Shown piece by piece: positions 12,462 to 47,147 of a stretch of 64,000 nt of DNA (positions within the stretch are counted from its first letter, which is position 1; each line of letters starts with the position of its first letter). Made by a program: the position numbers and the translations under genes. The DNA is from Sphingosinicella ginsenosidimutans (GTDB lineage: Bacteria > Pseudomonadota > Alphaproteobacteria > Sphingomonadales > Sphingomonadaceae). The notes beneath the pieces were generated by a model. It searched no databases. It was given only the letters and a program-made list of their open reading frames with translations, and was not told the DNA's origin. The DNA lies in assembly GCF_007995055.1 (NCBI RefSeq), contig NZ_VOQQ01000001.1:1781001-1845000 (forward strand), given 5' to 3'.

Positions 12462-14186
12462 TTACGCTCCCTGCTTGGTGTCGTTGCGGATGAGGTCGCG
12501 GACCACGAGCGCGGCGCGGGCCGGATCCTGGCGGACGAAACCGCGGATCAGCGCGGCGCGCGCTTCATAGTCGCGGGTCGCCTCGATCATCTCGAGCGTG
12601 ACCTTCATGTCGTTTTCGGTGCGCGTGCGCTCGGCCAGCGCGCCGGCGATCTGGCCGCCCATCTCGCCGCGCGCCGACTTGCTCTCCTCGGCGCGCTTGG
12701 CGAGCGCGTTGCTCGCCTTCTTGAGCATCGGCCGGCCGATCCCGAACACGACGAGCAGGGCGACCAGGATGGCGGTCGCGTTGCGGACCGCGGGCCAGAC
12801 CCAGGGCGCCTCGTACCAGCTCGTCGTCGGGGTTTCGCTGGTCGCGAAGGGGCGGGCGTTCAGCGCCACCACGTCGCCGCGCGTCTGATCGAAGCCGACC
12901 GCGCCCTTCACCAGCTGCTCCAGCGCCTGCATCTCCTGCGCGCTGCGCGGCCGGCCGGTGTCGGGATTGCGAAGCGCGATCGCGACGGTGAGGCGCTTCA
13001 GCACGCCGGTCTGCTGGCGGGTCACGGAAACCTCGCGGCCGACCGCGAAGTCGCGGTTGACGTTCTCGGTCGTGCGGCCGCCGCCGGCCGCCGGGGCGGG
13101 CGCGCCGGCCGGGGTCGGGGTCACCGCGCCGCCGGGCGCCGCCGCGACCTGCGAGGCGGGCGGCGGGGTGTTGGAGAGCGCGCCGGGGATGCCGCCGACC
13201 GCGCTTGCGCCGGAGGTGTCGCTGGTCCGCTGGGTCTGCTCGCTGGTGACCGCGCTCGCATTGGCCGGGAAGCCCTCGCGGGTCGACTGCACCTCGGAGA
13301 AGTCCATCTCCGCATGGACCTCGGCGGTGAAATTGCCGGCGCCGAGCATCGGCGTCAGCAGGTTTGCGATCGTCTGGCGATAACGATCCTCCACCTGCGC
13401 CTGGACGGAAAGCTGCTGCTCGCTCGCCTGGGTGGCGCCGGTGCCGCCGGTGCGCGAGAGGAGCTGGCCGTTCTGGTCGACCACGGACACGTTGTCGGGC
13501 GAAAGCCCCGGCACCGAAGAGGCGACGAGATGGACGATCGCCTGCACCTGCGCGTCGGACAGCGAACGGCCGCCCTTCAGCGTCAGCATGACGGAGGCGG
13601 AAGGCTGGGCGGCGTCGCGAACGAACACGCTCGGCGCTTCCACCGCGAGATGGACCCGGGCCGACTGGACGGCGTCGATCGCCTCGATCGTGCGGGCGAG
13701 ATCGAGCTCGCGCGAGGAACGGATGCGCTCGCCCTCGACGGCGCGGCTGGCGCCCATCGGCATGTTGTTCAGCGTATCCTCGCCGCTCGGCCCGCTGCGC
13801 GGCAGGCCCTGGCCGGCGAGCAGCATCCGCGCCTGGTAATATTGATCCTCCGGAACGTCGATCGCGCCGGTTGTGCGGTCGATCGTATAGGGGATGTTGG
13901 CGGTGCGAAGCGCCTCGACCACCGGCGCCTTTTCCTCGTCGGCAAGGCCGGGGAAGAGCGGGCGGCTGGGCGCCGCGCTCAACATGCTCCAGATCAGGAA
14001 GCCGATCGCGAGAAGGGCGACGAAGCCGACGGCCGGCAGGCTCTTGGCCACCGCCGGCTGCGCGATGAAGTTGCGCGCGTTCTGGATGATGCCGTTGGCG
14101 CTGAAGCCATTGCCGGCGGGCGCCGCCGCCGGCGCGGGCCGCGCGGCGGGCATCGAAAGATCGGGGGTGGTTGCAAGGTCGCTCAT
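12462..14186 (-). CDS. fliF: Flagellar MS-ring protein FliF
   Basis: 574 residues. Two membrane segments, one near residues 48-70 (SLPAVGFVALLAIGFLIWSML) and one near 462-482 (WPAVRNATAILVALLVVFGIG), flank the periplasmic ring-building motifs including 'IPYTIDRTTGAIDVPEDQYYQARMLLAGQGLP'. A Pro/Ala-rich insert separates the ring domains. The cytoplasmic tail binds FliG. One base separates its ATG from the fliE stop. Confidence 0.97.
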   Translation of the reverse strand: MSDLATTPDLSMPAARPAPAAAPAGNGFSANGIIQNARNFIAQPAVAKSLPAVGFVALLAIGFLIWSMLSAAPSRPLFPGLADEEKAPVVEALRTANIPYTIDRTTGAIDVPEDQYYQARMLLAGQGLPRSGPSGEDTLNNMPMGASRAVEGERIRSSRELDLARTIEAIDAVQSARVHLAVEAPSVFVRDAAQPSASVMLTLKGGRSLSDAQVQAIVHLVASSVPGLSPDNVSVVDQNGQLLSRTGGTGATQASEQQLSVQAQVEDRYRQTIANLLTPMLGAGNFTAEVHAEMDFSEVQSTREGFPANASAVTSEQTQRTSDTSGASAVGGIPGALSNTPPPASQVAAAPGGAVTPTPAGAPAPAAGGGRTTENVNRDFAVGREVSVTRQQTGVLKRLTVAIALRNPDTGRPRSAQEMQALEQLVKGAVGFDQTRGDVVALNARPFATSETPTTSWYEAPWVWPAVRNATAILVALLVVFGIGRPMLKKASNALAKRAEESKSARGEMGGQIAGALAERTRTENDMKVTLEMIEATRDYEARAALIRGFVRQDPARAALVVRDLIRNDTKQGA

Positions 14187-14187
14187 A

Positions 14188-14547
14188 TCACACCGGCATG
14201 TTCATGATGTCTTTGTAGGCGGTCAGGAGATGGTTCCTGACCTGCAGCGTCGCTTCGAACCCGAGCGACGCGCGCTGGCGGGCGAGCATCACCGCGGCGA
14301 TGTCCGTGGTCTCGCCGCGCTCGTAGGATTCGCTCATCGCGTTCGCGCGCGCATCGGCCTCGTTCACCCGGGCGAGCGCGCCGCGCAGCGCCGAGGCGAA
14401 GTCGCCGGGCTGGACGGCGCCAGCGCCGCCGGGCGCTCCCGGCGCCGGATTGACGGCGTCCGATCCCGCGGCGCGCTGGAGGGCGCTGTTGCGCTCCAGG
14501 ATCTGCGCCCGCATGGCCATGAGCCGGCTTGCGTCGATGCCCTGCAT
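14188..14547 (-). CDS. fliE: Flagellar hook-basal body protein FliE
   Basis: 119 residues. FliE connects the MS ring and the export gate with the rod. The C-terminal 'RGETTDIAAVMLARQRASLGFEATLQVRNHLLTAYKDIMNMPV' is the family signature. It follows the sigma-54 activator gene after 11 bases, so the activator and the basal body genes appear to share the promoter at 15814-15830. Confidence 0.95.
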   Translation of the reverse strand: MQGIDASRLMAMRAQILERNSALQRAAGSDAVNPAPGAPGGAGAVQPGDFASALRGALARVNEADARANAMSESYERGETTDIAAVMLARQRASLGFEATLQVRNHLLTAYKDIMNMPV

Positions 14548-15779: not shown

Positions 15780-15813
15780 TCGTGCAAACCCCCGAATTCG
15801 GTCGCCTGAAAAC

Positions 15814-15830
15814 AAGCAAGGGGCGTGCCA
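15814..15830 (-). promoter_or_regulatory. Sigma-54 promoter of the activator and fliE-flhB superoperon
   Basis: Minus strand reads TGGCACGCCCCTTGCTT: full -24 TGGCACG, 4 bp, -12 TTGC. The start point is expected about 15804, 25 bases before the activator ATG. Confidence 0.88.
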
Positions 15831-15836
15831 GATCGG

Positions 15837-15852
15837 CGGCAGACTTTTGCCG
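15837..15852. promoter_or_regulatory. Palindrome CGGCA-N6-TGCCG, candidate activator binding site
   Basis: CGGCA (15837-15841), six bases, TGCCG (15848-15852). The same motif occurs twice upstream of flgB. Here it is centred about 40 bp before the activator start point, just beyond the -24 element, a place where a bound activator could also repress its own promoter. Confidence 0.6.
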
Positions 15853-15906
15853 CTCTCGCGAGGCTGGGGGCAGGGGGGTTCGGGCGTCGGATCGCCGCCG
15901 GTCGCG

Positions 15907-15924
15907 GCGTCGGAAAACCGACGC
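15907..15924. repeat. Perfect inverted repeat GCGTCGG-AAAA-CCGACGC
   Basis: Seven-base arms around four A bases, between the activator and fliC promoters, about 100 bp upstream of the sigma-54 start point and 16 bp before the fliC sigma-28 -35 element. It could be a protein binding site; no T tract follows, so a terminator role is unlikely. Confidence 0.5.
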
Positions 15925-15939
15925 GCCAAAAAAGCCGAT

Positions 15940-15966
15940 TAAAGCCCCGTCGGGACCGGCCGTTAA
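15940..15966 (+). promoter_or_regulatory. Sigma-28 promoter of fliC
   Basis: TAAAGCCC (15940-15947), exactly 11 bp, GCCGTTAA (15959-15966). This fits the enterobacterial FliA consensus TAAA-N15-GCCGATAA with one difference in the -10. It gives a leader of about 58 bases before the fliC ATG. Confidence 0.8.
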
Positions 15967-16030
15967 TGCTTCACGTGGCAGTCAGGGATCGACCCGGCCG
16001 CCCATGATGAGAGTGGGAAAGGAACCCAAG

Positions 16031-16840
16031 ATGACTGTGATCAACACCAACACGTCTGCGCTTCGCGCGCAGAATGCCGGCCGGGTCGCGAACATGGCCC
16101 TGTCGCAGGCGATGGAGCGTCTGTCCACGGGCAAGCGCATCAACTCCGCGAAGGACGATGCGGCCGGCCTCGCCATTGCGAGCTCGATGACCTCGCAGAT
16201 CCGCGGCATGAACCAGGCGATCCGCAATGCCAATGACGGCATCTCGTTCGCCCAGACCGCCGACGGCGCGCTCAACGAAGTCACCAACATGCTCCAGCGT
16301 ATCCGCGAGCTTGCGGTGCAGAGCGCCAGCGGCACCTACTCCGACGACGACCGCGCCAACCTGCAGGCCGAAGTCGAGCAGCTCGGCGCCCAGATCGACG
16401 ACATCGTCGCGAACACCAAGTTCAACGGCGTCGCCGTGTTCGGTTCGAGCGACGTGACCGTCAACATTCAGACGGGCTCGGGTTCTTCGGACCAGACCGC
16501 GCTGACCGTCACCGGTTTCGACGTTTCGGACGCGACGGCTTCGGACGTCGGCACCGCTTCGGGCGCCAGCACGGCGATGGACGACGTCGATGACGCCCTG
16601 AAGGCGGTCGCCACGACCCGCGCCTCGCTCGGCGCCGGCCAGAGCCGCCTCGAGTCGATCGTCAACAACCTCAACAACAATGTCGCCAACCTGTCCGATG
16701 CGCGGTCGCGGATCGAGGATGCCGATTTCTCGGCCGAATCGACCAACCTCGCCAAGGCGCAGATCCTGAGCCAGGCGTCGACCGCGATGCTGGCCCAGGC
16801 CAATCAGAGCCAGTCGGGCGTGCTCAACCTGCTTCGCTAA
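16031..16840 (+). CDS. fliC: Flagellin
   Basis: 269 residues, the main filament subunit. The N-terminal D0/D1 part ([18 protein letters not shown] ... [24 protein letters not shown]) and the C-terminal part ([45 protein letters not shown]) are complete; the central variable region is very short (about residues 150-185), making this a minimal flagellin. GAAAGGA lies before the ATG; the in-frame upstream ATG at 16007 lacks this. The only flagellin gene in the window, followed by a strong terminator. Confidence 0.97.
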
Positions 16841-16865
16841 GAATAAGCAAAGCCAGCGAAGCGAG

Positions 16866-16902
16866 GCCCCGGTGCGGATATCCGCACCGGGGCTTCTTTT
16901 TT
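16866..16902 (+). terminator. Strong terminator after fliC
   Basis: A perfect palindrome with 14-base arms (GCCCCGGTGCGGAT and its complement, 16866-16893) is followed by TTCTTTTTT. It ends fliC transcription and lies just before the end of the convergent HAD-type gene. Confidence 0.92.
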
Positions 16903-16911
16903 GGTGGGGCA

Positions 16912-19278
16912 TCACGCGGCCTTCTTGAGCGCGGCGCGATCCTTGAGGACGAGCGGCCGGAAGGCGATGGCGAGGAGATAGGGCGTCGCCCCCACATTCT
17001 GCGGCGGCGGCGCGAGCAGCAGCGCCTCGGGACCGCAGCGGAAGAGACCGGGCCCTTCCTCGTTCATCCCTTCGCGCACCGGCTGGGCCGGGATCGGCGC
17101 GACCGCGATCTCGCGTGAACGTGGCCCGAAGGCCGCGACCGGATGGAAAGCGCATTCGTCGATCTGGACCCAGTCGCAGACCGCGCCGAAATTGATCCCG
17201 ACCGCGAACCGGCCGGCGCCGACCGGGACGGTCGCGAGATAATAGCCGTCATGCGTGGCATGGGCCTCGACCTCGATCATCGCCTGGCCGCGCGCATCGG
17301 CGAGCATCACCGGCAGCGTCAGCGCCGGGCCGCGGAAGTCCGCGTTGCGAAGGTCGAGATCGAAGCGGTTGGCGCCGAGCAGCGCGAGCGCGGTCGGCAG
17401 GCCATAAGGCTGGATCTCGCCGGACAGATACATGCGCTCGCCCTGGTGGAGATAGAAAAGCCCGCGCCGGCGCATCCCTTCCGCGGCGCGCTCGACGTCG
17501 AGCAGGCGCACGCTGTCCTTCGTGCCAAGGTTGATGTCATGCTCGAACGCTTCGAGCAGGGCGACTTCCTCGGCGCTCGGCATGAACAGCAGCCGGCCGA
17601 GCACGCCCGCCGCCATGTGCCGGCGGCAATCCGCATCGTCGGACGCCGGCGGACGTGCCATGCCCGCGCGTGGCTGGCGGGCGAAGGCGATGCAGGCCTC
17701 CTGGATGCGATCGCGGATCGCGTTCTGCGCGCTTTTGGTGCCGCCGCCCTTGCGGATCGGATCGCCTTTCGGCCCGTAATCGACGACCGAGCCGCGCGGG
17801 CAGGTGCTGAGCTGCTCGATGACCGCGATCGGACCCGACAGCGCGTGGAGCGCGCGCAGGTCATAATGGCGCGCGTCGAGGAAGCCCTTCTTGTCGAGGC
17901 CGCTCAATATCTCTTCGCGAAGCAGCAGGTAGCGGCCGGCGACATGAAGGTCGAAGCGCTCGGCGAGCACGGGCGCGAGCTGGTTCTGCGCGGTCCCGTT
18001 ATAGCCGAGGTCGACGAACAGCACGGCATCGCCGCGCTCCACGCCCGCCGCCCGGAGATGGGCGAACAGGCGGTCGGCGAAGGCGGTCGATCGCGCGACG
18101 ATCTTTTCGAGCGCGGCGGGCTGGAGCGCGGCGCGGCTGAACGCCTCCTGCGACGTGCCGAGCGCGCGCGCCTCGCTGTCGGTGAGGCCGAGCTGGCGGG
18201 CGAGCACGTCGACTCGGCCATGCTTCGCCTGGGTGGCGAGATAGGCGCCGACCGCCGCTTCGCCGGTGAAGGTCGCGCGGCGCGCGGTGAACCGGCTGAT
18301 CTCTGCGGTGGCGGCCTTCGTGCCGGTCATCGCCTCGAAGACGCGGGCGGGAAGGTGGCCGTCGCGAAGCAGGAAGACGGGCTTCACCGGCCGCCCGGTG
18401 CGCGCCGCGATCTCGGCGGCTTCGCCCTGAACCCAGGCGGCGAAGGTCTGGAAGACCGGGCCGAGCACGTCGTGGCCGAGCGTCCAGGCGGCGTCCGTCT
18501 CCTCGCGAAGCGCGATCGCCGGGCGGTGCGGCTGATAGGCGGGGACATCGGCGCGGATGCGCCCGTCGATCATCGCGGCCGCCGCCGCCTCGAGCCGCAG
18601 CCGCTGTTGCGCGAAATGGTCGAACTGGCGGAAATGCGCGGTCGCCACCCCCAGCCCGGCGGGGGCCTTCTGGTCGGCCTCGGCATTGTCGCCGACGTGG
18701 AGCACGGCCCCGGCGGGAACGCCGAGCGCGGCGAGCACCGGCTCGAAAAGGCCCGTCGCCTTGGTTTTGCCGAAGGCGGAGGAGCAGAAGATCCGGTCGA
18801 TGAGGTTCGCCACCTCGTCGCCGGCCGCCGATGTGATGAGCGCGCGAAGCTGGTCTTCGGCCAGATAGGTGTCGCTGACGACGATCACCTCGAGTCCCCG
18901 CGCCTTCGCCGCGCGGATCAGCGCGACGACGGGTGCGAAGGCGAAGGCGTGGCGCGCCTCGGCGGCCAGCTCGGCCGCGATCGCCGCCGCGCGCTCGGCA
19001 TCGCAGGCCGATGGCATCAGCGTTCGGTAGATATGGTCGATCGTGACCTCAGCCCGCTCCTCGGCGAGCCAGGCGGTCTTGCGCGCCTTGCTTTCGGCGC
19101 GGGTGCGGACCCAGCCGCCACCGCCGGCGATCGGCAGATCGGCGAAGATGTCGTGCGGCGCCTCGACGTTGCGCCAGATCAGCGTGTCGAAACAGTCGAG
19201 CGACAGCACCCGGATCCCATCGGGCGCGCGATCCAGCAGATTCGGCAGCTCGGCGGCGGTGACCTTCACCTGCATCAT
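16912..19278 (-). CDS. Large HAD-superfamily hydrolase-like protein co-transcribed with fliA
   Basis: 788 residues from the ATG at 19278, which overlaps the fliA stop as ATGA. The N-terminal third is a HAD domain: motif I 'LSLDCFDTLIWR' (Asp28 and Asp31), motif II 'VIVVSDTYL', a lysine in 'AFGKTKATGLFEPVL' and motif IV 'LHVGDNAEAD', so the catalytic residues look intact. The remainder has segments such as 'FLLRDGHLPARVFEAM' and 'LFVDLGYNGTAQNQLAPVL' seen in large HAD-type proteins of polysaccharide loci (COG5610-like by memory), plus a C-terminal beta-rich region. No signal peptide. Coupled translation with the flagellar sigma factor and position facing flagellin suggest a part in flagellin or surface modification; substrate unknown. 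Confidence 0.8.
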   Translation of the reverse strand: MMQVKVTAAELPNLLDRAPDGIRVLSLDCFDTLIWRNVEAPHDIFADLPIAGGGGWVRTRAESKARKTAWLAEERAEVTIDHIYRTLMPSACDAERAAAIAAELAAEARHAFAFAPVVALIRAAKARGLEVIVVSDTYLAEDQLRALITSAAGDEVANLIDRIFCSSAFGKTKATGLFEPVLAALGVPAGAVLHVGDNAEADQKAPAGLGVATAHFRQFDHFAQQRLRLEAAAAAMIDGRIRADVPAYQPHRPAIALREETDAAWTLGHDVLGPVFQTFAAWVQGEAAEIAARTGRPVKPVFLLRDGHLPARVFEAMTGTKAATAEISRFTARRATFTGEAAVGAYLATQAKHGRVDVLARQLGLTDSEARALGTSQEAFSRAALQPAALEKIVARSTAFADRLFAHLRAAGVERGDAVLFVDLGYNGTAQNQLAPVLAERFDLHVAGRYLLLREEILSGLDKKGFLDARHYDLRALHALSGPIAVIEQLSTCPRGSVVDYGPKGDPIRKGGGTKSAQNAIRDRIQEACIAFARQPRAGMARPPASDDADCRRHMAAGVLGRLLFMPSAEEVALLEAFEHDINLGTKDSVRLLDVERAAEGMRRRGLFYLHQGERMYLSGEIQPYGLPTALALLGANRFDLDLRNADFRGPALTLPVMLADARGQAMIEVEAHATHDGYYLATVPVGAGRFAVGINFGAVCDWVQIDECAFHPVAAFGPRSREIAVAPIPAQPVREGMNEEGPGLFRCGPEALLLAPPPQNVGATPYLLAIAFRPLVLKDRAALKKAA

Positions 19279-20006
19279 TCGTCCCATCCGGAAAGGGCGC
19301 CGCGCAGCTTGTCGAGCGCGGCTTTCTTGATCTGGCAGATCCGCGCCGCGCCGACGCCGAGCGTCTGGCCGATCTCGTCGAGGTTCATCTCCTCGACGAA
19401 ATAGAGCTGCAGCACCATCGCGTCGCGCTCGGGAAGCTGGCGGATGCCGTTGGCGATCGCCTGCTTCAGCCGCTCTCGGTCGATGCGGTCGTCGGCCCGC
19501 TCCTCGACATCGGCGAACCACATGGAATGATCGGAATAGACCTCGTCGATCGATTCCTGGTGGACGGCCTGGCTGTCGTCGACGAGCGCGCGATAATCGG
19601 CGGCGTCGAGCCCCATTTCGGCAGCCATCTCGTCCTCGGTCGGCGCGCGGCCGAACCGGCCCTCCAGCCGGTGGCGAACGTCGGCAAGCTCGCGCCGCCG
19701 CGCCATCGCCGATCGACAGATGAGCGCATGGCGGCGCAGATGATCGATCATCGCGCCGCGGATCCGCAGCGTCGCATAGGTCGCGAAGGCGTGGCCGCGA
19801 TCCTCGAATCCCTTGGCGGCCTCGACCAGCGCGACCATGCCGATCTGGACGAGATCCTCGATCTCGATCGCGGAGGCGACTCGGCCGTGCACGTGCCAGG
19901 CGATCTTGCGGACCAGCGCCATGTGGGCGCGGACCAGCGCATCCGGCGACTGCGCCGGCCGGCGGCCGTAGAGCGGCCCGGGGTCGATGGCGTTAGCAAG
20001 CGCCAT
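19275..20006 (-). CDS. fliA: Flagellar sigma factor FliA (sigma-28)
   Basis: 243 residues. Region 2 'LVRKIAWHVHGRVASAIEIEDLVQIGMVALVEAAKGFEDRGHAFATYATLRIRGAMIDHLRR' and region 4 'LPERDAMVLQLYFVEEMNLDEIGQTLGVGAARICQIKKAALDKLR' are typical of FliA/WhiG sigma factors. It directs the late genes; matching promoters are seen before fliC, flgM, motA and the orphan gene. It overlaps flhG by 14 bases and the HAD gene by four, so is itself read from the sigma-54 promoter at 23756-23770. Confidence 0.95.
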   Translation of the reverse strand: MALANAIDPGPLYGRRPAQSPDALVRAHMALVRKIAWHVHGRVASAIEIEDLVQIGMVALVEAAKGFEDRGHAFATYATLRIRGAMIDHLRRHALICRSAMARRRELADVRHRLEGRFGRAPTEDEMAAEMGLDAADYRALVDDSQAVHQESIDEVYSDHSMWFADVEERADDRIDRERLKQAIANGIRQLPERDAMVLQLYFVEEMNLDEIGQTLGVGAARICQIKKAALDKLRGALSGWDE

Positions 20007-20799
20007 GCATCGCCTCCATCGTCGCCCGCACGGCGACCGGCGCGGCGGGCGCGATCCGCGCCGCGACGCGGGTCATCGCCTTGCTGGCGCGCGCGCTGGG
20101 GAACAGCTCCATGCAGCAGCGCTTGCGGCGCACGGCCTCGCGCACATAGGGATCCTCGGGGATCGACCCGGCATGATCGAGCCGGACGTCCAGGAAGCGC
20201 GTGATCACGCTCTCGAAATGGTCGAAGAGGGCGCGGCCGGCCTGATCGCTTTCGACGAGGTTGGTGACGACCGTGAAGTCGGAGACGCCCTGGCCGACGG
20301 CGAGCGCCTTGACCAGCGCATAGGCATCCATGAACGCCGTCGGCTCGGGCGCGAGCACGATCAGCGCGCGATCCGCCGCGGCGACCAGCGCCATGCTTTC
20401 CGCGCCGATGCCGGCGCCGGTATCGACGATGACATGGTCGTAATCGCCCGCCTCGGTCTCGAGCGCTTTCAGCAGGCGAACGCGCTCGGCCTGTGACAGC
20501 GTCGATCCGATGCCGATGCCGCTATGGCCGGCCGCGAGCCCGATGCCGCACGGCCCGGGCACGATGATGTCGGCCAGCTCGCAATGGCGGGCGAGCAGAT
20601 CGGCAAGGGTCATGCTCGGGTTGAGGCCGAGCAGGATGCCGGCATTGGCGACCCCCATGTCGCAATCGACGAGAAGGGTCCGCGCGCCGGACTTGGCGAG
20701 CGCCACCGCGAGGTTGACGGCGACATTGGTCTTGCCGACACCGCCCTTGCCGCTCGTCACCGCGAACATGCGGGCCTTGCCGTTCATCGTCTCGCTCAC
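19993..20799 (-). CDS. flhG: FlhG/FleN-type MinD-like ATPase controlling flagellar number
   Basis: 268 residues with GTG start (GGAGG seven bases upstream) overlapping the flhA stop. Deviant Walker A 'SGKGGVGKTNVAVNLAVALA', 'VDCDMGVANAGILLGL', and switch 'VIVDTGAGI' place it in the MinD/ParA family; the flanking flhA and fliA identify it as FlhG/FleN, which limits flagellar number and in some species inhibits the sigma-54 activator. A C-terminal amphipathic membrane helix is not obvious. No flhF lies between flhA and flhG, which is unusual. Confidence 0.9.
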   Translation of the reverse strand: MSETMNGKARMFAVTSGKGGVGKTNVAVNLAVALAKSGARTLLVDCDMGVANAGILLGLNPSMTLADLLARHCELADIIVPGPCGIGLAAGHSGIGIGSTLSQAERVRLLKALETEAGDYDHVIVDTGAGIGAESMALVAAADRALIVLAPEPTAFMDAYALVKALAVGQGVSDFTVVTNLVESDQAGRALFDHFESVITRFLDVRLDHAGSIPEDPYVREAVRRKRCCMELFPSARASKAMTRVAARIAPAAPVAVRATMEAMHGAC

Positions 20800-22901
20800 G
20801 CGGGAACCTCCGTTTCAAGCATTGGATGCTGGTTCTCGCCACCGACGACGGCGACGACCTCGACGGGCTTGCCGTCGGGGATTTCAAGGAAGGACAGGAC
20901 CGGCACGTCCGGCAGGTGCGGGCTCAGCAGCCGCGCCAGCGCCCGCCGGACGATCGGCGAGGTGACGACGGCGAAGCGCCGCCCTTCGCGGAGCAGCGGG
21001 CCGGCGACGCCGCCGACCGCCTGGACGATCTTCTGGGCAAGGCCGGGCTCGATCGGATGGACCGCGTCGCGGCCCGTGCGGACGGCCTGGTTGAGCAGGC
21101 CTTCGAGACTGCCGTCGAGCGTGACCACCGGCAGCGGCATCTTCACCGGCACGATCGTCTGGACGATGAGCGCGCCGATCCGCTGGCGGACGGCCTCGAC
21201 GAGCTGGACCGGATCGGTCTCCTCGCGCGCCGCCTCGACCATCGCCTCGGCGATGCGGCGGAAATCCTTGAGCGGCACGCCCTCGCTCAGCAGTGCGCGG
21301 CACAGGCCGGCGATGGCGGCGAGCGGCAGCGGCTGCGGCGTCAGGTTGGCGACGAGCTGGGGCGCGCTGTCCTTCAGCGCGTCGAGCAGCTTCTGCGCCT
21401 CGTCCATGCCGAACAGGTCGGCGGCGGCGGTCTGGATGATCTGGTTGAGATGGGTCGCCGCGACGGTTGCCGGATCGACCACCGTATAGCCGGCGACCAC
21501 CGCCTCCGCGCGCTGCGATGGCGGGATCCACACCGCGTCGAGCCCGAAGGTCGGATCCTTGACCTGTCGGCCCTGGATCTTGTCGAGCAGGTCGCCGCTG
21601 TCGAGCGCGAGCAGGTCTTCCGGCCAGATCTCGTCCTCGCCGACCACGACGCCCGCGACCGAGATGCGATAGGTGTTGGGGCCGAGGCTGAGCTCGTCGC
21701 GCACCCGGACGATCGGCACGACGAAGCCGAGCTCGCGCGAAAGCTGGCGGCGGATGCCCGTGATCCGCGCCATGAGCGGGGCGCCCTTGCGCTCGTCGAC
21801 CAGGCCGATCAGGCCGAAGCCGAGTTCGAGGCAGAGCGCGGCATCGTCGCTGACCTCGTCCCAGCCGATGAGGTGCGGCGCCGGCGGCGCGGGCGGGGCT
21901 TCGACCACCATCGCCCTGGCGTCGGCCGCCTTCTTGAGCTTCCACGCGATCGTCCCGGCGACGGCCGCCGCCGGCAGGATCACGAAATGCGGCATGCCGG
22001 GCAGGACGCCGAGAATGGCGAGGATCGCCGCCACCGGGGTCCAGGCCTTGGCCGATCCGAACTGGCTGGTGATCTGGCCCGAAAGATCGAATGGCGAGGA
22101 AACGCGGGTGACGATCGCCGCCGCCGCGATCGAGAGCAGCAGCGCCGGCACCTGCGCGACCAGCGCGTCGCCGATCGCGAGCAGGACATAGGTCGAGGCC
22201 GCATCCTTCAGCGACAGCGAATGGCTCACCGTGCCGAGGATCAGCCCGCCGATGATGTTGACCATCAGGATCAGCACGCCGGCGATCGCGTCGCCCTTCA
22301 CGAACTTGGAGGCGCCGTCCATCGATCCGTAGAAATCGGCCTCGGTGGCGACTTCCTGGCGGCGGAACTTGGCTTCTTCGGGGGTCAGCAGGCCGGCATT
22401 GAGATCGGCGTCGATCGCCATCTGCTTGCCCGGCATGGCATCGAGGGTGAAGCGCGCCGAGACTTCCGACACGCGGCCGGCGCCCTTGGTGATGACCACC
22501 AGGTTGATGATCATCAGGATCATGAAGACGAAGATGCCGACGGCATAATCGCCGCCGATCAGGAAATTGCCGAACGCCTCGATCACATGGCCGGCCGCGT
22601 TCGTGCCGGTATGGCCGTTGACCAGGACGACGCGGGCCGATGCGACGTTGAGCGCGAGGCGAAGCAGCGTCGTGAACAGCAGCACCGTCGGAAAGGACGA
22701 GAAATCGAGCGGGCGGGCGACGTTCAGCGCCACCATCAGCACCGCAAGGCTGACCATGATGTTGGTGATGAAGCCGACGTCGAGCAGCGCCGCCGGCACC
22801 GGCACGACCATCAGCATGACGAGCAGCAGGATCGCGACCGGCAGGATCGCGCCCTTGCCGGCGTTCAGCCACACGCGCCTGTTCAGGGCCATCTGGCTCA
22901 T
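20796..22901 (-). CDS. flhA: Flagellar export gate protein FlhA
   Basis: 701 residues. About eight membrane segments in the first 320 residues, the FHIPEP signature 'RFTLDAMPGKQMAIDADLNAGLLT' and a large cytoplasmic domain from about residue 340 that binds chaperone-substrate complexes. FlhA forms the nonameric ring of the export gate and couples proton flow to export. It starts three bases after the transglycosylase stop. Confidence 0.97.
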   Translation of the reverse strand: MSQMALNRRVWLNAGKGAILPVAILLLVMLMVVPVPAALLDVGFITNIMVSLAVLMVALNVARPLDFSSFPTVLLFTTLLRLALNVASARVVLVNGHTGTNAAGHVIEAFGNFLIGGDYAVGIFVFMILMIINLVVITKGAGRVSEVSARFTLDAMPGKQMAIDADLNAGLLTPEEAKFRRQEVATEADFYGSMDGASKFVKGDAIAGVLILMVNIIGGLILGTVSHSLSLKDAASTYVLLAIGDALVAQVPALLLSIAAAAIVTRVSSPFDLSGQITSQFGSAKAWTPVAAILAILGVLPGMPHFVILPAAAVAGTIAWKLKKAADARAMVVEAPPAPPAPHLIGWDEVSDDAALCLELGFGLIGLVDERKGAPLMARITGIRRQLSRELGFVVPIVRVRDELSLGPNTYRISVAGVVVGEDEIWPEDLLALDSGDLLDKIQGRQVKDPTFGLDAVWIPPSQRAEAVVAGYTVVDPATVAATHLNQIIQTAAADLFGMDEAQKLLDALKDSAPQLVANLTPQPLPLAAIAGLCRALLSEGVPLKDFRRIAEAMVEAAREETDPVQLVEAVRQRIGALIVQTIVPVKMPLPVVTLDGSLEGLLNQAVRTGRDAVHPIEPGLAQKIVQAVGGVAGPLLREGRRFAVVTSPIVRRALARLLSPHLPDVPVLSFLEIPDGKPVEVVAVVGGENQHPMLETEVPA

Positions 22902-22904
22902 CGC

Positions 22905-23726
22905 TTAACCCCCGATCCCGGCGAGCATGAGATAGGCGAGCCGCGCATATTCGGGCGAAGGGCCGCCGAAGGGCCGCGTCGGATCGGTGCCGAGCCCGGT
23001 CGGATCATTGGGGTCGATCCCCAGCGCCGCCATCCGCATCGCCGCCGATTGCGGCGCGGCGGCCTGGGCATAGCGCACCTGCGGCATCGTGCTGCTGCCG
23101 CCGCCGATCCGCTCGGCGAAATGCTGGCGGATCTCGGCGAAGCTGCGGGCGCTGCCGTCGCGATTGTAGAAGACCGCGCGATTGGCGCGGGCGGCGGCGG
23201 GAAGGAGCGCGGCGGCGGCCGCGTCCGGGTTGGAATCGTGCGCGCGCAGGAAGCGGGTCGCCCCGGCGGCGCCGAGGAAATGGGCGAGGTAGAGATCGAC
23301 CGGCTCGGCGGCGCGGCCGAGCCGCTGCTCGATATAATCCTTGTTGTCCGACGCATATTCGCCGGCCATGGCGGAAGCGGCCTCGGGCTCGCGCCTGAGA
23401 TCGAGGATCGCCTGGCGCAGCTGCGGGTCGGAAACGTAGAAATGGCCGTTATGGCCCTGGCGGATCGCGTCGGCCGCCCAGCCGAGGCCGTGCTCGGCGC
23501 CGTGGCGCTTCACCGTGCCGAGCCAGGTCTGCTCGATGAACTGGAACAATCCGGTCGCGCTCGACGTGCGGGCGCGCGCATTCGGATTGAAGCCGCTCTC
23601 CATCCGCGCCTGATTGAGCAGGTAGGAGAAATCGACGCCGGTGCGCGACGCGGCGAGCTGGATCGCGCTGTTGATCCGGCCCCGCAGGGAGCCTTCGGCA
23701 ACAGCGCTGTTCGTCGTCGGAATCAT
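22905..23726 (-). CDS. Lytic transglycosylase-type muramidase (flagellar SLT protein)
   Basis: 273 residues, starting at ATG 23726 with GAAAGGGG upstream. The SLT fold is visible: 'INSAIQLAASRTGVDFSYLLNQARMESGFNPNARARTSSATGLFQFIEQTWLGTVKRHG', with catalytic Glu in 'ARMESGFN'. No clear signal peptide, as in proteins exported by the flagellar apparatus. FlgJ in this cluster lacks its peptidoglycan hydrolase domain, so this enzyme probably opens the wall for the rod. First gene of the unit with flhA-flhG-fliA, under a sigma-54 promoter. Confidence 0.88.
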   Translation of the reverse strand: MIPTTNSAVAEGSLRGRINSAIQLAASRTGVDFSYLLNQARMESGFNPNARARTSSATGLFQFIEQTWLGTVKRHGAEHGLGWAADAIRQGHNGHFYVSDPQLRQAILDLRREPEAASAMAGEYASDNKDYIEQRLGRAAEPVDLYLAHFLGAAGATRFLRAHDSNPDAAAAALLPAAARANRAVFYNRDGSARSFAEIRQHFAERIGGGSSTMPQVRYAQAAAPQSAAMRMAALGIDPNDPTGLGTDPTRPFGGPSPEYARLAYLMLAGIGG

Positions 23727-23755
23727 GACGCCCCTTTCCATTCAGGGGCATCTCA

Positions 23756-23770
23756 GCAAATGGCGTGCCA
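23756..23770 (-). promoter_or_regulatory. Sigma-54 promoter of the transglycosylase-flhA-flhG-fliA unit
   Basis: Minus strand TGGCACGCCATTTGC: full -24 TGGCACG, 4 bp, -12 TTGC. It lies between flgN and the transglycosylase gene; the start point is expected about 23744, placing fliA under sigma-54 control. Confidence 0.87.
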
Positions 23771-23794
23771 GTTGGCCGCCGCGCGGCGCTTTCG

Positions 23795-24103
23795 TCAGCG
23801 CGCGCCGGCGCGGTAGGTGCCTGGACGGGCGTGGCCGCGCGCCTCGGCGATGCGATCGATCCGCCGGGCGATTCCGTCCGTCAGGAAATTGACGCGGGCC
23901 TGGGCGGCGCTGGCCTGGGCCGCGAGCGCGGCGAGCCGGGGCCGGTGGTCGGCATGGGGCGCGGGGGCCTCGGCGCGCAGCGCCTCGACGGCCGCGCGCA
24001 AGGCTTCGGCGGCCGCTTCGACGGCCGCCGCGGTGCCGCCGTCGAGGGCGCGGATCATCGCGTCCTGGCAGGCGGCGAGTCGATCGAAGCCAGTCTGGCT
24101 CAT
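23795..24103 (-). CDS. flgN: FlgN-like flagellar chaperone
   Basis: 102 residues, helical and alanine-rich (DRLAACQDAMIRALDGGTAAAVEAAAEALRAAVEALRAEA), ending in a basic tail. FlgN chaperones the hook-filament junction proteins FlgK and FlgL. FlgN proteins share little sequence; the call depends on size, helix pattern and the flgM-flgN order, with a four-base overlap. Confidence 0.75.
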   Translation of the reverse strand: MSQTGFDRLAACQDAMIRALDGGTAAAVEAAAEALRAAVEALRAEAPAPHADHRPRLAALAAQASAAQARVNFLTDGIARRIDRIAEARGHARPGTYRAGAR

Positions 24104-24378
24104 GCCTCTCGGCGCGGCAGATCGAGCGCGATCATTCGCTCGGCGATCTTGTCGGCATCGACCGGATAGCGGCCGTCGGCGATGGCGGCGCGGATCTCCG
24201 CCACCTTGGCCTCGTCGATCGGCGGGCCTTCGGCGACCAGGCTCATGATGGAGCTCTGGACGGCGCCGCCGCCGCGGGTGGTCGCGCCGCCGGTGGAGGT
24301 GGTGGCGCTCGTCGCCTCGACGCTGCCACGCGCGGCGCCGATCCGGCCGGGTCCGGTCTTGCCCACTCCCTCGATCAT
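24100..24378 (-). CDS. flgM: Anti-sigma-28 factor FlgM
   Basis: 92 residues from the ATG at 24378 (AAGGGA upstream). A Gly/Ser/Thr-rich disordered N-terminal half and the conserved C-terminal 'IDEAKVAEIRAAIADGRYPVDADKIAERMIALDL' are typical of FlgM, which binds FliA until hook completion allows its export. It has its own sigma-28 type promoter at 24423-24449 and probably also receives transcription from flgA. Confidence 0.93.
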   Translation of the reverse strand: MIEGVGKTGPGRIGAARGSVEATSATTSTGGATTRGGGAVQSSIMSLVAEGPPIDEAKVAEIRAAIADGRYPVDADKIAERMIALDLPRREA

Positions 24379-24422
24379 CTCGTTCCCTTTCGCGAGGGCC
24401 GAAATACCCTCTCCGGAACCTG

Positions 24423-24449
24423 ATAACGGCCGCGTTAGCATTTAATTAA
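24423..24449 (-). promoter_or_regulatory. Sigma-28 type promoter of flgM-flgN
   Basis: TTAATTAA (24442-24449), 11 bp, GCCGTTAT (24423-24430) on the minus strand, overlapping the 3' end of flgA. This gives the usual feedback in which FliA makes its own inhibitor. Confidence 0.7.
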
Positions 24450-24966
24450 ATCCGGGAAGGGCGATCCGCCCGTCGGGCAGGACTTCGCCGATAAGCGGGG
24501 CCGCGCGCTGTTCCATCCGGACGCGGATTCGATCGCCGGCGGCGCCGTCCTGGTCGGCGGTGCCGATCGCGCTGACGGTGAAGCTCGCGCTGCGGGCGAC
24601 GACGGTGACCTGGTCGCCGCGGCGGATGATCGGCGCGGCGCGAACCGGTGCCGAGGCGGGCGTCGCGTGCGGCGCCTGCGTCGATGCGTCGGCGACCAGC
24701 GGCACCCGGATCCGCCAGCCACGCGAGGCGCAGCGCACCGCGACCGCGCCCATTGCGGGGGCGTCGACGGTGACGGGCTCGGGGCAGGGCGCGAGCCGCA
24801 GCCGGCGGTCGATCGGCTGCCGGGCGCCGCCAGGCTGGCCGATCGCGGCGCCGAGGGAGGCAGCGACCTGCACGTCGAGATTGTCCAGATTCTCGAAGCC
24901 CTGTGCCCCGGCCGCCGCGGGAATCGCGGCCGCCAGCAGGGCGAGGCGTCGGAAAATTGGCGTCAT
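24442..24966 (-). CDS. flgA: Flagellar P-ring assembly chaperone FlgA
   Basis: 174 residues when started at ATG 24966 (MTPIFRRLALLAAAIPAAAGAQG, a clear Sec signal peptide). The longer frame to 24999 would begin inside the sigma-54 promoter. The C-terminal SAF-type domain 'IIRRGDQVTVVARSASFTVSAIGTADQDGAAGDRIRVRMEQRA' fits FlgA, the periplasmic chaperone for FlgI. Ahead of flgM-flgN. Confidence 0.9.
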   Translation of the reverse strand: MTPIFRRLALLAAAIPAAAGAQGFENLDNLDVQVAASLGAAIGQPGGARQPIDRRLRLAPCPEPVTVDAPAMGAVAVRCASRGWRIRVPLVADASTQAPHATPASAPVRAAPIIRRGDQVTVVARSASFTVSAIGTADQDGAAGDRIRVRMEQRAAPLIGEVLPDGRIALPGFN

Positions 24967-24997
24967 TGCATGCACTCCAGCCATTTCGGCGGAGTCC

Positions 24998-25014
24998 AAG
25001 CAATGGCCGTGCCA
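24998..25014 (-). promoter_or_regulatory. Sigma-54 promoter of flgA
   Basis: Minus strand TGGCACGGCCATTGCTT: full -24 TGGCACG, 4 bp, -12 TTGC, directly after the end of the short motB-like gene and about 20 bases before the expected start point upstream of flgA. Confidence 0.87.
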
Positions 25015-25022
25015 AGCCGCGC

Positions 25023-25472
25023 CTAGCGCCGGGAAACCACGATCCGCTGGTCGCCCGGCCCGGCCGCTTCATCGAAGGACACGGCGATGGCGCGCTCGTC
25101 CAGCCCGGCGGCGCGCAAGGCGCGGGAGACCGCGACGCTGCGCGCGGCGGCGAGCTCGAACCGGTCGAGCCGGCCGCCGCCCTCGCCAAGGCCCCGGCTC
25201 GAGACACGGACGTTGCCGCCGCGAAGTTGCGGGACAAGGGCGGCGATCCGGGCGCGGCCGGCCTCGGTCAGCCGCGCCTCGCCCGGCTCGAACAGGCTGG
25301 CGGCGTCGAGTTCGGCCGTCGGGACGGGGCCGGCCGCGGCCCCGGGCGCCGCGCCGGCGCTCCCGGTCGGCCGCGCGGCCTCGACGGCGTGCAGGAAGAC
25401 GAAGCAGCCGAGCAGGAGCAGCAGCAGATCGGCGAAGCTGATCGCCCAGCGCGCGGAGACGGCGTCCTTCAT
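25023..25472 (-). CDS. Short MotB-like stator protein with OmpA-type domain
   Basis: 149 residues from ATG 25472, which overlaps the upstream motA-like gene (ATGA). One membrane helix near residues 11-31 contains the proton-channel aspartate position ('ISFADLLLLLLGCFVF', Asp15), followed by a short linker and an OmpA-like domain ('FEPGEARLTEAGRARIAALVPQL' ... 'FELAAARSVAVSRALRAAGLDERAIAVSF'). It is half the size of the MotB at 36137 and lacks most of the linker. With its MotA-like partner it may be a second stator or a related proton-driven unit. Confidence 0.75.
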   Translation of the reverse strand: MKDAVSARWAISFADLLLLLLGCFVFLHAVEAARPTGSAGAAPGAAAGPVPTAELDAASLFEPGEARLTEAGRARIAALVPQLRGGNVRVSSRGLGEGGGRLDRFELAAARSVAVSRALRAAGLDERAIAVSFDEAAGPGDQRIVVSRR

Positions 25473-26146
25473 GCGCTTTGCGCGAAGCGCCGGCTGCGCC
25501 ACTGCCGGATCGCGTCATCCTCCTGGCGCGCGAGGATTTCGAGCCGGCCGATGACGCGCTCCTGCCAATGCAGCTCCGCACGCGACAAACGCTCGAGCCG
25601 CGCCGCGATGGGGCCGGCGATCACGAAGGCGATGAACAGGCCGTAGAGCGTCGTCAGCATCGCCGTCGCCATCGCCGGCCCCATCGCCGCGACGTCGTGC
25701 ATCCGCGCGAACATCGCGACGAGCCCGAAGACCGTGCCGATCATGCCCATCGCCGGGCCGATCTCGCTCGCCGATCGCCACAACCGGATCGCGCCCTCGT
25801 GCCGGGCCCGGCGATCGTCCAGATCATCGCGCGCCCAGGCGGCGAACGTCTCGCTGCCGTCGGCCTCGGCGAGGCGGCAGGCGGCGCGGCGCACGAAATC
25901 GACCGGCGTCTTCACGCGGTCGGCGCAGACGATGCCTTTATATTCGGAAATGCGCTGGATCTGGCGCACGGCGCGCTCGGCGGTGCGGCCGTCCTCTTCG
26001 GGCCGGGCGCGAAGCAGCGGGCGCAAGGCGGCGATCGCGCGCCGGGCGTCCGCGGCGGTCGCCTGGACGATGACGGCGAGGCCGGTGCCGCCGAAGACGA
26101 GGAGGAAGGCGACGGGATCGAAGAAACGCTCGAACAGGCCCGACAT
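25469..26146 (-). CDS. MotA-like stator protein (second pair)
   Basis: 225 residues. Segments 'PVAFLLVFGGTGLAVIVQA', 'GPAMGMIGTVFGLVAMFARM' and 'MATAMLTTLYGLFIAFVIAGPIAARLERL' correspond to the MotA/TolQ/ExbB proton channel core, with a cytoplasmic loop between. GAGGA precedes the ATG. Divergent from flgB and translationally coupled to the short MotB-like gene. It differs from the MotA at 35261, so the cluster encodes two stator-type pairs. Confidence 0.82.
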   Translation of the reverse strand: MSGLFERFFDPVAFLLVFGGTGLAVIVQATAADARRAIAALRPLLRARPEEDGRTAERAVRQIQRISEYKGIVCADRVKTPVDFVRRAACRLAEADGSETFAAWARDDLDDRRARHEGAIRLWRSASEIGPAMGMIGTVFGLVAMFARMHDVAAMGPAMATAMLTTLYGLFIAFVIAGPIAARLERLSRAELHWQERVIGRLEILARQEDDAIRQWRSRRFAQSA

Positions 26147-26162
26147 CCCGATCCTCCCCGCA

Positions 26163-26180
26163 CCGGCAAGAAAGTGCCGG
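26163..26180. promoter_or_regulatory. Palindrome CGGCA-N6-TGCCG, distal site upstream of flgB
   Basis: CCGGCA (26163-26168), six bases, TGCCGG (26175-26180). Same arms and spacing as the site at 15837. It is centred 20 bp from the next copy, two turns of the helix, and about 207 bp before the flgB start point. Confidence 0.65.
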
Positions 26181-26182
26181 CC

Positions 26183-26200
26183 CCGGCAAAAACTTGCCGG
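26183..26200. promoter_or_regulatory. Palindrome CGGCA-N6-TGCCG, proximal site upstream of flgB
   Basis: CCGGCAAAAACTTGCCGG, a perfect dyad apart from four central bases (26183-26200). With the distal copy it forms a tandem pair in the divergent motA-like/flgB spacer, a likely enhancer for the sigma-54 promoter at 26253. Confidence 0.68.
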
Positions 26201-26252: not shown

Positions 26253-26267
26253 TGGCACGATCATTGC
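26253..26267 (+). promoter_or_regulatory. Sigma-54 promoter of flgB-flgL
   Basis: TGGCACGATCATTGC: full -24 TGGCACG, 4 bp, -12 TTGC. The start point is expected near 26279, about 58 bases before the flgB ATG. Confidence 0.88.
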
Positions 26268-26336: not shown

Positions 26337-26690
26337 ATGGCCCAGGGCGACAGCCTGTTCGGCATCCACGGCACCGCGCTGGCGCTGCGTTCGCAGCGCC
26401 TGTCGCTGCTCGCATCGAACATCGCCAACGCCGCGACGCCCGGTTACCAGGCGCGCGACATCGATTTCAATTCGGCGCTCGACATGGCCCAGCGCGGCTA
26501 TGGCGCCGATCGGGCGGCGTCCCAGTCCGTCCAGTACCGGATTCCGACCGAGGCCTCGATGGACGGCAACACGGTCGAGCTTTCCACCGAACAGACGCTC
26601 TTCGCGGAGAATGCGGTCCAGTACCGCACGACGCTGGCCTTCCTCGAAGGCCGCATCTCCACGATCCGGCGCGCGCTCAAGGGGGACTAG
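26337..26690 (+). CDS. flgB: Flagellar proximal rod protein FlgB
   Basis: 117 residues. 'LFGIHGTALALRSQRLSLLASNIANAATPGYQARDIDFNSAL' is the FlgB N-terminal rod motif with the ANT(T)PGY signature; the C-terminal 'NAVQYRTTLAFLEGRISTIRRALKGD' forms the partner helix. A perfect TAGGAGG lies five bases before the ATG. First gene of an 11-gene rod-hook operon. Confidence 0.96.
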   Translation: MAQGDSLFGIHGTALALRSQRLSLLASNIANAATPGYQARDIDFNSALDMAQRGYGADRAASQSVQYRIPTEASMDGNTVELSTEQTLFAENAVQYRTTLAFLEGRISTIRRALKGD

Positions 26691-35178: not shown

Positions 35179-35205
35179 TAAAGTCCGGCCGCCCGCCACC
35201 GTTAA
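35179..35205 (+). promoter_or_regulatory. Sigma-28 promoter of motA-motB
   Basis: TAAAGTCC (35179-35186), 11 bp, ACCGTTAA (35198-35205). The same TAAAG and CCGTTAA core as in front of fliC. Leader of roughly 49 bases to the motA ATG. Confidence 0.75.
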
Positions 35206-35260: not shown

Positions 35261-36124
35261 ATGTTCGCAGCGGTTGGCATCATTGTCGTCATTGTCATGG
35301 TGTTCGGCGGCTTCATTCTCGGTGGCGGCAGCATCGGCGTCATCGCGCACGCGCTGCCGCTCGAATTCCTCGTCATCGGCGGGGCCGCCGTCGGCTCGAC
35401 CGTTACCGGCAATTCGCTGAAGGAACTGAAGGCGCTGGGCGGCGGCCTGATCCGCGTCTTCAAGGGCCCGACCTACCAGAAGCGCGATTTCCTCGACGTC
35501 ATCTTCCTCGTCTCCAAGCTGATGAAGATGCTGCGGACCGACGGCCCGGTCGCGGTCGAGCCGCATATCGAGGATCCGAAGTCGAGCGCGATCTTCGCCG
35601 ACTATCCAAAGCTCCTCAAGGACGACACGCTCGTCCACCTGATCTGCGACACGCTGCGCCTGGTGGTCGTCTCGTCCGGCACCCTCGATCCCCATGCGGT
35701 CGAGGAGGTGATGGACAATGCGATCAAGACCCATCACCACGACGCGATCCGGCCGGCGGCGACGTTGCAGACGCTGGCGGACGCGCTTCCCGCGCTCGGC
35801 ATCGTCGCGGCAGTGCTCGGCGTCGTGAAGACGATGGCCTCGATCGATCAGCCGCCGGCGATCCTCGGCGAGATGATCGGATCGGCGCTGGTCGGAACTT
35901 TCCTCGGCGTCCTGCTCGCCTATGGCTTCGTCGGTCCGTTCGCGAACCGGGCCAAGCAGGTGATCGAAGCCGACGGCGCGATCTACCAGGTCGTCAAGCA
36001 GATCGTCATCGCCTCGCTCCACGGCCACCCGCTTCCGCTGGTGATCGAGGCGGCCCGCTCCGGCATCCAGCATTCGAACCAGCCGGCCTTTGCCGACGTG
36101 TTCGATGGCATGCGCGGCCGGTAA
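35261..36124 (+). CDS. motA: Flagellar motor stator protein MotA
   Basis: 287 residues with four membrane segments and the channel motif 'SALVGTFLGVLLAYGFVGPFANRAKQ'. The large cytoplasmic loop (residues about 60-170) contacts FliG. MotA with MotB conducts protons to drive rotation. GGGGA precedes the ATG; motB follows after 12 bases. Confidence 0.96.
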   Translation: MFAAVGIIVVIVMVFGGFILGGGSIGVIAHALPLEFLVIGGAAVGSTVTGNSLKELKALGGGLIRVFKGPTYQKRDFLDVIFLVSKLMKMLRTDGPVAVEPHIEDPKSSAIFADYPKLLKDDTLVHLICDTLRLVVVSSGTLDPHAVEEVMDNAIKTHHHDAIRPAATLQTLADALPALGIVAAVLGVVKTMASIDQPPAILGEMIGSALVGTFLGVLLAYGFVGPFANRAKQVIEADGAIYQVVKQIVIASLHGHPLPLVIEAARSGIQHSNQPAFADVFDGMRGR

Positions 36125-36136
36125 GGGACCAAACTC

Positions 36137-37093
36137 ATGGCGACCCGCGCCAAACCCGGACGCAACGAGCCCGCGCCGCAGCCGATCATCGTCAAGAAGG
36201 TGGTCGAAGCCGCGCACGACGCCCATCACGGCGGCGCGTGGAAGATCGCCTATGCCGATTTCGTGACCGCGATGATGGCCTTCTTCCTGCTCCTGTGGAT
36301 CATCGGCGCGACCGACGAGAACAAGAAGCGCGGCCTTGCCGATTACTTCACGCCGACCCTGATCGAATATAAGCAGGACAGCGCCGGATCGGATGGCATC
36401 CTTGGCGGCGATTCAATCATCTCGGCGGACAATTATCCGCACCGGGCGACCCAGACGGGATCGCGCGCGATCGTGGTCCCGCGCGACGTAACCGGCGGCG
36501 TCCGCGAAGGCGAAGCGCCGCGCACCGAGGATCATCAGCGCTTCATGCAGCTGCGCGAGGAGATTCTGCGCCGCATCCAGTCCGATCCGAACCTGCGCCA
36601 GCTTCGCAACCATGTCAGCTTCACCGAGGATGACGAGGGCCTTCGGATCGACCTGATGGACGAAGCGGATTTTTCGATGTTCCGGGTGGGCACCGACGTG
36701 CTGCTGCCCCAGGCGCGCGCACTGGTCGCGCAGGTGGCGAGCGTCATCCAGGGCGTGCCCAATCAGGTCGTGGTGCGCGGCCACACCGATTCGCTGCCTT
36801 ATTCGTCGGGCCAGACGATGAACAACTGGATGCTCTCGACCGCGCGGGCGGAAAGCACCCGGGCGGCGCTCCAGTCCTCCGGCGTCCCGGTCACGCGGAT
36901 CAGCCGCATCGAGGGCGTCGCCGATCGCGAACCGTTCGTCCCGAACGACCGCTACGATCCGCGCAACCGCCGCATCTCGATCACGCTGGCCTGGCGATCG
37001 GCCGGAGCGGTGGCCCGGCCCGCGACGAATGGGCCCACGGCGGCCGGTCCCGCGGGCCCGGCGACCGGGAACCCCGTGGTGAGGGCGCATTAA
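36137..37093 (+). CDS. motB: Flagellar motor stator protein MotB
   Basis: 318 residues. One membrane helix with the proton-binding aspartate (Asp41 in 'IAYADFVTAMMAFFLLLWI'), a periplasmic linker, and an OmpA-type peptidoglycan binding domain ('VVVRGHTDSLPYSSGQTMNNWMLSTARAESTRAALQ' ... 'YDPRNRRISITL'). A Pro/Gly/Ala tail follows. AAGGGA precedes the ATG. Confidence 0.96.
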   Translation: MATRAKPGRNEPAPQPIIVKKVVEAAHDAHHGGAWKIAYADFVTAMMAFFLLLWIIGATDENKKRGLADYFTPTLIEYKQDSAGSDGILGGDSIISADNYPHRATQTGSRAIVVPRDVTGGVREGEAPRTEDHQRFMQLREEILRRIQSDPNLRQLRNHVSFTEDDEGLRIDLMDEADFSMFRVGTDVLLPQARALVAQVASVIQGVPNQVVVRGHTDSLPYSSGQTMNNWMLSTARAESTRAALQSSGVPVTRISRIEGVADREPFVPNDRYDPRNRRISITLAWRSAGAVARPATNGPTAAGPAGPATGNPVVRAH

Positions 37094-41767: not shown

Positions 41768-41771
41768 CTCC

Positions 41772-47147
<5,376 letters not shown>

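Follow-up and report, generated by a model that had tools for sequence, protein, structure and literature searches.

In enhancers of the NtrC type, a pair of dimer-binding sites shares one face of the helix, roughly 100 bp ahead of the sigma-54 promoter. Among the flagellar regulators working with sigma-54, FlbD of Caulobacter acts as activator of middle and late genes and as repressor of fliF, the latter at the site ftr4, which is placed just upstream of fliF in PMC3930126. FlrC is described as driving rod and hook genes with sigma-54 and as having a kinase partner (PMC6504787), and FleT, of the Fla1 system of Rhodobacter sphaeroides, as a sigma-54 activator whose gene shares an operon with fliEFGHIJ (PMC7277832). 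The present study analyzes a 64,000-nucleotide stretch of the Sphingosinicella ginsenosidimutans genome (contig NZ_VOQQ01000001.1; hereafter the window), in which the dyad CGGCA-N6-TGCCG lies as a pair upstream of the rod gene flgB and singly beside the promoter of a flagellar sigma-54 activator gene whose product we call P0001. Comparison with related genomes suggests, with a probability that we put at roughly 0.8, that these dyads would be operators of this receiver-less activator, the flgB pair serving as an enhancer and the single dyad, with less certainty, limiting the activator's own operon. A preliminary description of the locus had reported three exact copies with the same arms and six-base spacing, and a string search located all of them. 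Both members of the flgB pair extend to CCGGCA-N6-TGCCGG and are 20 bp apart from centre to centre. A literature search gave no pointer to the motif in sphingomonads in the titles and abstract openings that it found, from which we do not claim its absence from print.

Conservation upstream of flgB carries the argument. Matches to the activator at E 1e-73 or better were present in 77 of 149 genomes of the family, one per genome and the window's own included, and the best 60 of the 76 other matches were taken with the window as 61 loci, 33 of which (window included) contained flgB; the fetched stretches of the remainder were without it. In 32 of the 33 loci the 350 bp before flgB contained an exact dyad (51 exact copies in total), and a copy with at most one mismatch was present in all 33; spacers of 2–5 and 7–10 bases gave 2 exact copies together. 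For 31 of these loci we could assign a sigma-54 box to flgB, and 21 of the 31 had at least two sites, the first two standing 18–22 bp apart. Measured from the -24 G, the centres of the sites group near -53, -62, -73, -83, -92, and -104 with a few between, that is in steps of about one helical turn. A period of 10.5 bp gave R = 0.79 for 50 sites, and, for the 17 distinct distances only, R = 0.65, which was equalled in 1 of 5000 uniform draws; the relatives are not independent, and a binomial figure would overstate certainty. By this periodicity test the flgB dyads stand in the same helical register, on one face, and they form inverted-repeat dimer sites ahead of a -24/-12 promoter as in a sigma-54 enhancer (upstream activating sequence).

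The window itself follows the pattern of its relatives. The centre of the proximal dyad is 62.5 bp upstream of the -24 G of flgB, the commonest distance (12 of 50 sites), and that of the distal dyad 82.5 bp, a distance found 10 times in all. With the transcription start inferred as 12 bases beyond the -12 GC, the two centres fall at about -107 and -87 and the centre of the pair at about -97, some 155 bp before the flgB start codon, so that the earlier placing of the pair at about -190 of flgB has to be corrected. The arrangement resembles that of NtrC in its paired, same-face sites some 100 bp before a sigma-54 promoter, and differs from it in DNA sequence and regulon. Given the conservation, the distance to the sigma-54 box, the helical phase, and the clustering near the activator gene described below, the enhancer-like character proposed earlier stands, and it is very likely that the flgB pair would act as an enhancer of this activator. 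Two activator dimers might then occupy adjacent positions, about -87 and -107, on the same face of the helix, and their AAA+ domains would assemble, contact sigma-54 RNA polymerase at its box, and open the flgB promoter.

We take the dyad as a flagellar control element because it is conserved upstream of flgB, and not because the string is rare. Dinucleotide shuffles gave 0.31 expected copies in the window, but the 36 exact copies in the whole 3.04 Mb genome, or about 0.76 per 64 kb, provide a fairer rate. There is a fourth exact copy in the window, overlooked in the preliminary description, inside a predicted coding frame. By a crude codon-usage test this copy and 31 others (32 of 36) are in coding frames, and the four non-coding copies are the three reported sites and one at C1:386992; the single dyad overlaps only an over-extended TTG frame, upstream of the activator ATG at 15779 that alignment of orthologues supports. 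The bare string is unremarkable and not rare in the genome, and its placement is what stands out. When a scoring matrix was built from relatives' flgB sites with exact arms only (49 sites, the window's two excluded), the proximal dyad, the single dyad, and the distal dyad ranked first, second, and third in the window in that order, the next-best site scoring 13.7 and the fourth copy 1.9; elsewhere in the genome one coding site (L187) scored 17.9, slightly above the distal dyad. The possibility that a GC-rich genome and its codon usage yielded the string by chance draws on the many coding copies, the fourth among them, but it would leave the flgB conservation, a spacing almost always of six, and the helical phase without explanation. 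We therefore reject a chance origin for the flgB pair and consider it scarcely credible as a general account; for the copy beside the activator it remains at a low level. The earlier statement that chance was improbable thus holds for the pair and not for the string as such.

Sites in the relatives also gather around the activator gene. Of 37 genomes searched, 36 contained the strict form CGGCAA-N4-TTGCCG, and of 75 strict sites listed for 23 genomes (the window's own included), 50 were within 25 kb of the activator gene, with 1.1 expected by length. A random spread through the coding DNA of relatives, which the preliminary description had named as telling against the motif, was not seen for this strict form, unlike the looser exact string, which is mostly coding in this genome. 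Such computed results (the sites, the promoters, their conservation and phasing, and the clustering around the activator gene) support a tie of the dyads to the activator locus as a flagellar control element. There were further sites at other flagellar genes. The transglycosylase gene before flhA was placed in 22 loci (window included), and 8 of them had dyads about 300–440 bp ahead of it, paired at 30 bp in six (L059, L062, L070, L074, L078, and L080) and single in two (L054 and L064); the window's own promoter at this gene is without a dyad. Twelve stretches downstream of the activator (L248–L259) were selected for having a site and are no test of conservation; most of their sites were at fliM/fliN or close to the fliI-fliK junction, and four of the twelve (L249, L250, L253, and L255) had sites about 190–195 bp before a sigma-54 box. 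In three further relatives (L260–L262) the stretch fetched from downstream of the activator had no site, as in the window.

What the single dyad beside the activator gene does is less certain than the role of the flgB pair. This dyad abuts the -24 box, its centre being 15.5 bp from the -24 G, and it spans about -33 to -48 from an inferred start near 15804, which agrees with the position of about -40 given earlier. The polymerase footprint adjoins this position. Activator bound here would overlap the footprint and could limit transcription of activator-fliE-fliF once activator is sufficient, and we give repression of the operon by the single dyad about even odds. In 7 of the 61 loci the 350 bp before the activator gene contained an exact N6 copy, and in 14 a copy with at most one mismatch; other spacers gave 0 or 1 exact copy and, with one mismatch, up to 8 loci, at N3. 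The N6 dyad is enriched upstream of the activator but its position varies among loci. In only one further locus, L031, was a site combined with a placed sigma-54 box; there the site stands about 155 bp before the -24 G. Because activator-side sites are rare and differently positioned elsewhere, the argument for self-repression comes from the geometry of this genome only; of the repression proposed earlier, the close contact with the -24 box in this genome speaks for it and the rarity and distance of sites elsewhere against it. An alternative explanation is that the single dyad serves positive autoregulation, the activator driving its own sigma-54 promoter. A promoter of this type needs some activator, P0001 is the sole sigma-54 activator found by tblastn within the window, and the site in L031 is at enhancer distance; in the window, however, the dyad is too close to the -24 G for the usual enhancer arrangement, and we regard autoactivation as rather unlikely.

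Several results weigh against reading the dyads as operators of the local activator. In addition to the scarcity and altered distance of activator-side sites, 25 of the 75 listed strict sites were elsewhere in the genomes. Perfect TGGCACG-N4-TTGC boxes number 5 in the genome, 4 of them within the window, and two of these four, upstream of flgA-flgM and of the transglycosylase gene, have no recognisable dyad; the motif thus accompanies only two of the four. In loci L041 and L043 the flgB dyad is present and no sigma-54 box was found by the pattern used, and three other alphaproteobacteria with the order activator-fliE-fliF have a sigma-54 box at flgB and no dyad. Finally, there are six further P0001-like matches elsewhere in the genome, which leaves room for another protein at the dyads, for example a local repressor or a second sigma-54 activator whose gene lies elsewhere. 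This would find a parallel in R. sphaeroides, for which PMC7277832 describes FleT as paired with a second activator, FleQ, a difference from the window, where the search shows no second one. Against another binder are the clustering of strict sites around this activator gene in 23 genomes and the near-identical half-site that FlbD, another flagellar activator, has in its own loci, and we consider it improbable. In our preferred reading the CGGCAA-N4-TTGCCG-like dyads would be bound by the local activator.

Pfam assigns to the activator a Fis-type helix-turn-helix (HTH_8) and an AAA+ sigma-54 domain, and no Response_reg match was found in P0001 or in two orthologues scanned. Its helix-turn-helix is consistent with a role as putative binder of the dyad. 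In this protein and in 2 of 8 aligned relatives (L021 and L026), GSFTGA replaces GAFTGA in the loop that contacts sigma-54.

A further alternative is a Caulobacter-type FlbD/ftr circuit with an orthologous activator. FlbD is likewise a flagellar sigma-54 activator without known kinase (a receiver scan of two FlbD proteins gave one sub-threshold match and one none), with the half-site GGCA and a likely double use as activator and repressor, and in both systems one activator would serve enhancers and an early promoter. The helix-turn-helix of the window family and that of FlbD (GISIRTLRNKL) share an RTLR core by alignment. For Sphingomonas sp. WG, PMC8921679 reports a flagellar cluster with a regulator called FlbD plus FliX and FlbT, which, as far as that account goes, favors such a circuit and weighs against a simple picture of the group. 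The sites differ, however, by one base in the spacer. Of 32 FlbD loci in which fliF could be placed, 25 have an exact GGCA-N5-TGCC close to the fliF start and none has an N6 dyad there; an exact N5 dyad was found upstream of flgB in none of the 33 family loci. In two Brevundimonas contigs the N5 site is beside a TTAACCA- or TTTACCA-like box just before fliF, and in Caulobacter sp. D5 the fliF site fits GGCAA-N3-TTGCC only with two mismatches. These dyads may correspond to ftr sites, with which we equate them by position only.

Protein comparison separates the two systems further. The NCBIfam FlbD profile scores P0001 at 286.7 bits, with a cut-off of 750. In two unrooted trees, the first using 69 of 125 collected proteins and the second 50 of 128, the activator family forms one group (support 100 and 99) and FlbD a separate group (100), and a joint clade of FlbD and the P0001 orthologues was rejected by the approximately unbiased (AU) test (p-AU 0.00013). 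Three other alphaproteobacterial activators whose genes precede fliE-fliF join the family (100), and a separate group (84) is formed by the gammaproteobacterial proteins of FlrC/FleR position. In gene order, FlbD lies downstream of fliF, and the window activator precedes fliE-fliF; the genome has no PF10768 (FliX) match at E 0.001, and the flagellin promoter of the window is of sigma-28 type. FlbD orthology of the activator is rejected on trees, AU test, and gene order, and we consider the FlbD/ftr circuit as such highly improbable; a likeness in logic without orthology is possible. As separate observations, FliX is present in four genomes of one genus (G244, G246, G255, and G256; L348–L355), in which no FlbD and no P0001 match (E 1e-4) was found in the stretches fetched, and fliG near FliX in three of the four suggests a further flagellar system. 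A contig labelled Bordetella (L110) holds an alphaproteobacterial FlbD locus that groups with Caulobacter and is probably a mislabelled bin.

In gene order the locus is closer to two other systems. In 8 of 10 gammaproteobacterial loci inspected, an activator gene lies directly upstream of fliE-fliF as in the window, and we presume from gene position that these activators are FlrC/FleR. The Shewanella protein of FlrC position differs in having a clear receiver domain, for which P0001 shows no match. The Shewanella genome has a GGCA-N6-TGCC 211.5 bp upstream of the flgB -24 G, and 3 of its 18 GGCAA-N4-TTGCC sites fall inside 20 kb of flagellar cluster. FleT resembles P0001 as an alphaproteobacterial sigma-54 activator sharing an operon with fliE-fliF, a likeness of gene order.

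To look beyond the family, 700 bp upstream of flgB were searched in 30 loci, drawn from a phylum-wide search and Shewanella. GGCA-N6-TGCC was found in 2 of the 30, Shewanella being one, an N5 dyad in 3, and an N4 dyad in 3 from one genus outside the class, at an identical position; most loci had nothing with spacers of 4–6. Genome-wide, CGGCAA-N2-TTGCCG gave 1–8 sites in each of seven genomes with no clear flagellar clustering, and GGCAA-N4-TTGCC exceeded its reversed control in 8 of 10 gammaproteobacterial or Pseudomonadota genomes; the neighborhood of the flagellar genes was covered in a few of them. As far as this sample goes, it is mainly this family that has the N6 pair at flgB. A tentative generalization, which we hold at somewhat less than even odds, is that flagellar sigma-54 activators keep the half-site GGCA/GGCAA and that the dyad spacer varies by lineage, with N5 for FlbD, N6 for this family and perhaps Shewanella, and N4 for one genus.

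Table 1. Dyads, promoters, and genes of the window, with coordinates counted from its first letter.
Feature	Position	Strand	Basis
Distal dyad, flgB pair	26164-26179 (18-bp palindrome 26163-26180)	.	exact match; matrix 17.6
Proximal dyad, flgB pair	26184-26199 (18-bp palindrome 26183-26200)	.	exact match; best window matrix score, 26.6
Single dyad beside activator promoter	15837-15852	.	exact match; matrix 22.9, second in window
Fourth exact copy, in predicted coding frame	49007-49022		exact match
Sigma-54 promoter TGGCACG-N4-TTGC, flgB operon	26253-26267	+	pattern match
Sigma-54 promoter TGGCACG-N4-TTGC, activator-fliE-fliF operon	15816-15830	-	pattern match
Sigma-54 promoter upstream of flgA-flgM, no recognisable dyad	25000-25014	-	pattern match, matrix scan
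Sigma-54 promoter upstream of transglycosylase gene-flhA-flhG-like-fliA-like, no recognisable dyad	23756-23770	-	pattern match, matrix scan
flgB, rod protein, first gene of operon	26337-26690	+	open reading frame; tblastn orthologues in relatives; Shewanella FlgB match 49%
Flagellar sigma-54 activator (P0001), 406 amino acids, AAA+ and Fis-type helix-turn-helix	14559-15779	-	Pfam, orthologues, alignment, trees
fliE, directly downstream of activator	14188-14547	-	Pfam PF02049
fliF, MS-ring protein, presumably same operon as activator	12462-14186	-	Pfam PF01514, PF08345
fliC, flagellin, divergent from activator	16031-16840	+	Pfam Flagellin_N, Flagellin_C
Sigma-28-type promoter TAAAG-N14-GCCGTTAA of divergent flagellin gene	15940-15966	+	exact consensus match
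Second sigma-28-like promoter	35179-35205	+	one mismatch
motA/motB pair	35261-37093
Smaller second MotA/ExbB-like and OmpA/MotB-plug-like pair	25023-26146	-
Hybrid histidine kinase, 1791 amino acids	41772-47147	-
Second hybrid kinase	39725-41902
GGDEF protein	37149-38141

Other features of the window are collected in Table 1. The flhG-like gene encodes a ParA/MinD-type ATPase and the fliA-like gene is of the sigma-70 family. The promoter of the divergent flagellin gene matches a sigma-28 consensus exactly, for which 0.01 matches are expected at one mismatch or fewer, and the second sigma-28-like promoter lies about 60 bp upstream of the motA/motB pair. The smaller second pair of this kind is divergent from flgB. 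The large hybrid histidine kinase contains about 9–10 HAMP stretches and has the other hybrid kinase as a neighbor, with the GGDEF protein nearby.

The dyads provide a concrete candidate operator for an activator family without a detected receiver and, in this genome, without a FliX match, and within the family part of the regulon may be read from sequence. Given the helical phasing of the flgB sites, simple insertions could probe the geometry of the putative enhancer, and the spacer, one base longer than in FlbD loci, offers a clean test of how dyad spacing sets activator specificity. If the tentative view of lineage-specific spacers is true, the spacer, set by the way in which the helix-turn-helix dimer is held, would be the evolving element of specificity in the flagellar switch, with the recognition helix itself nearly fixed.

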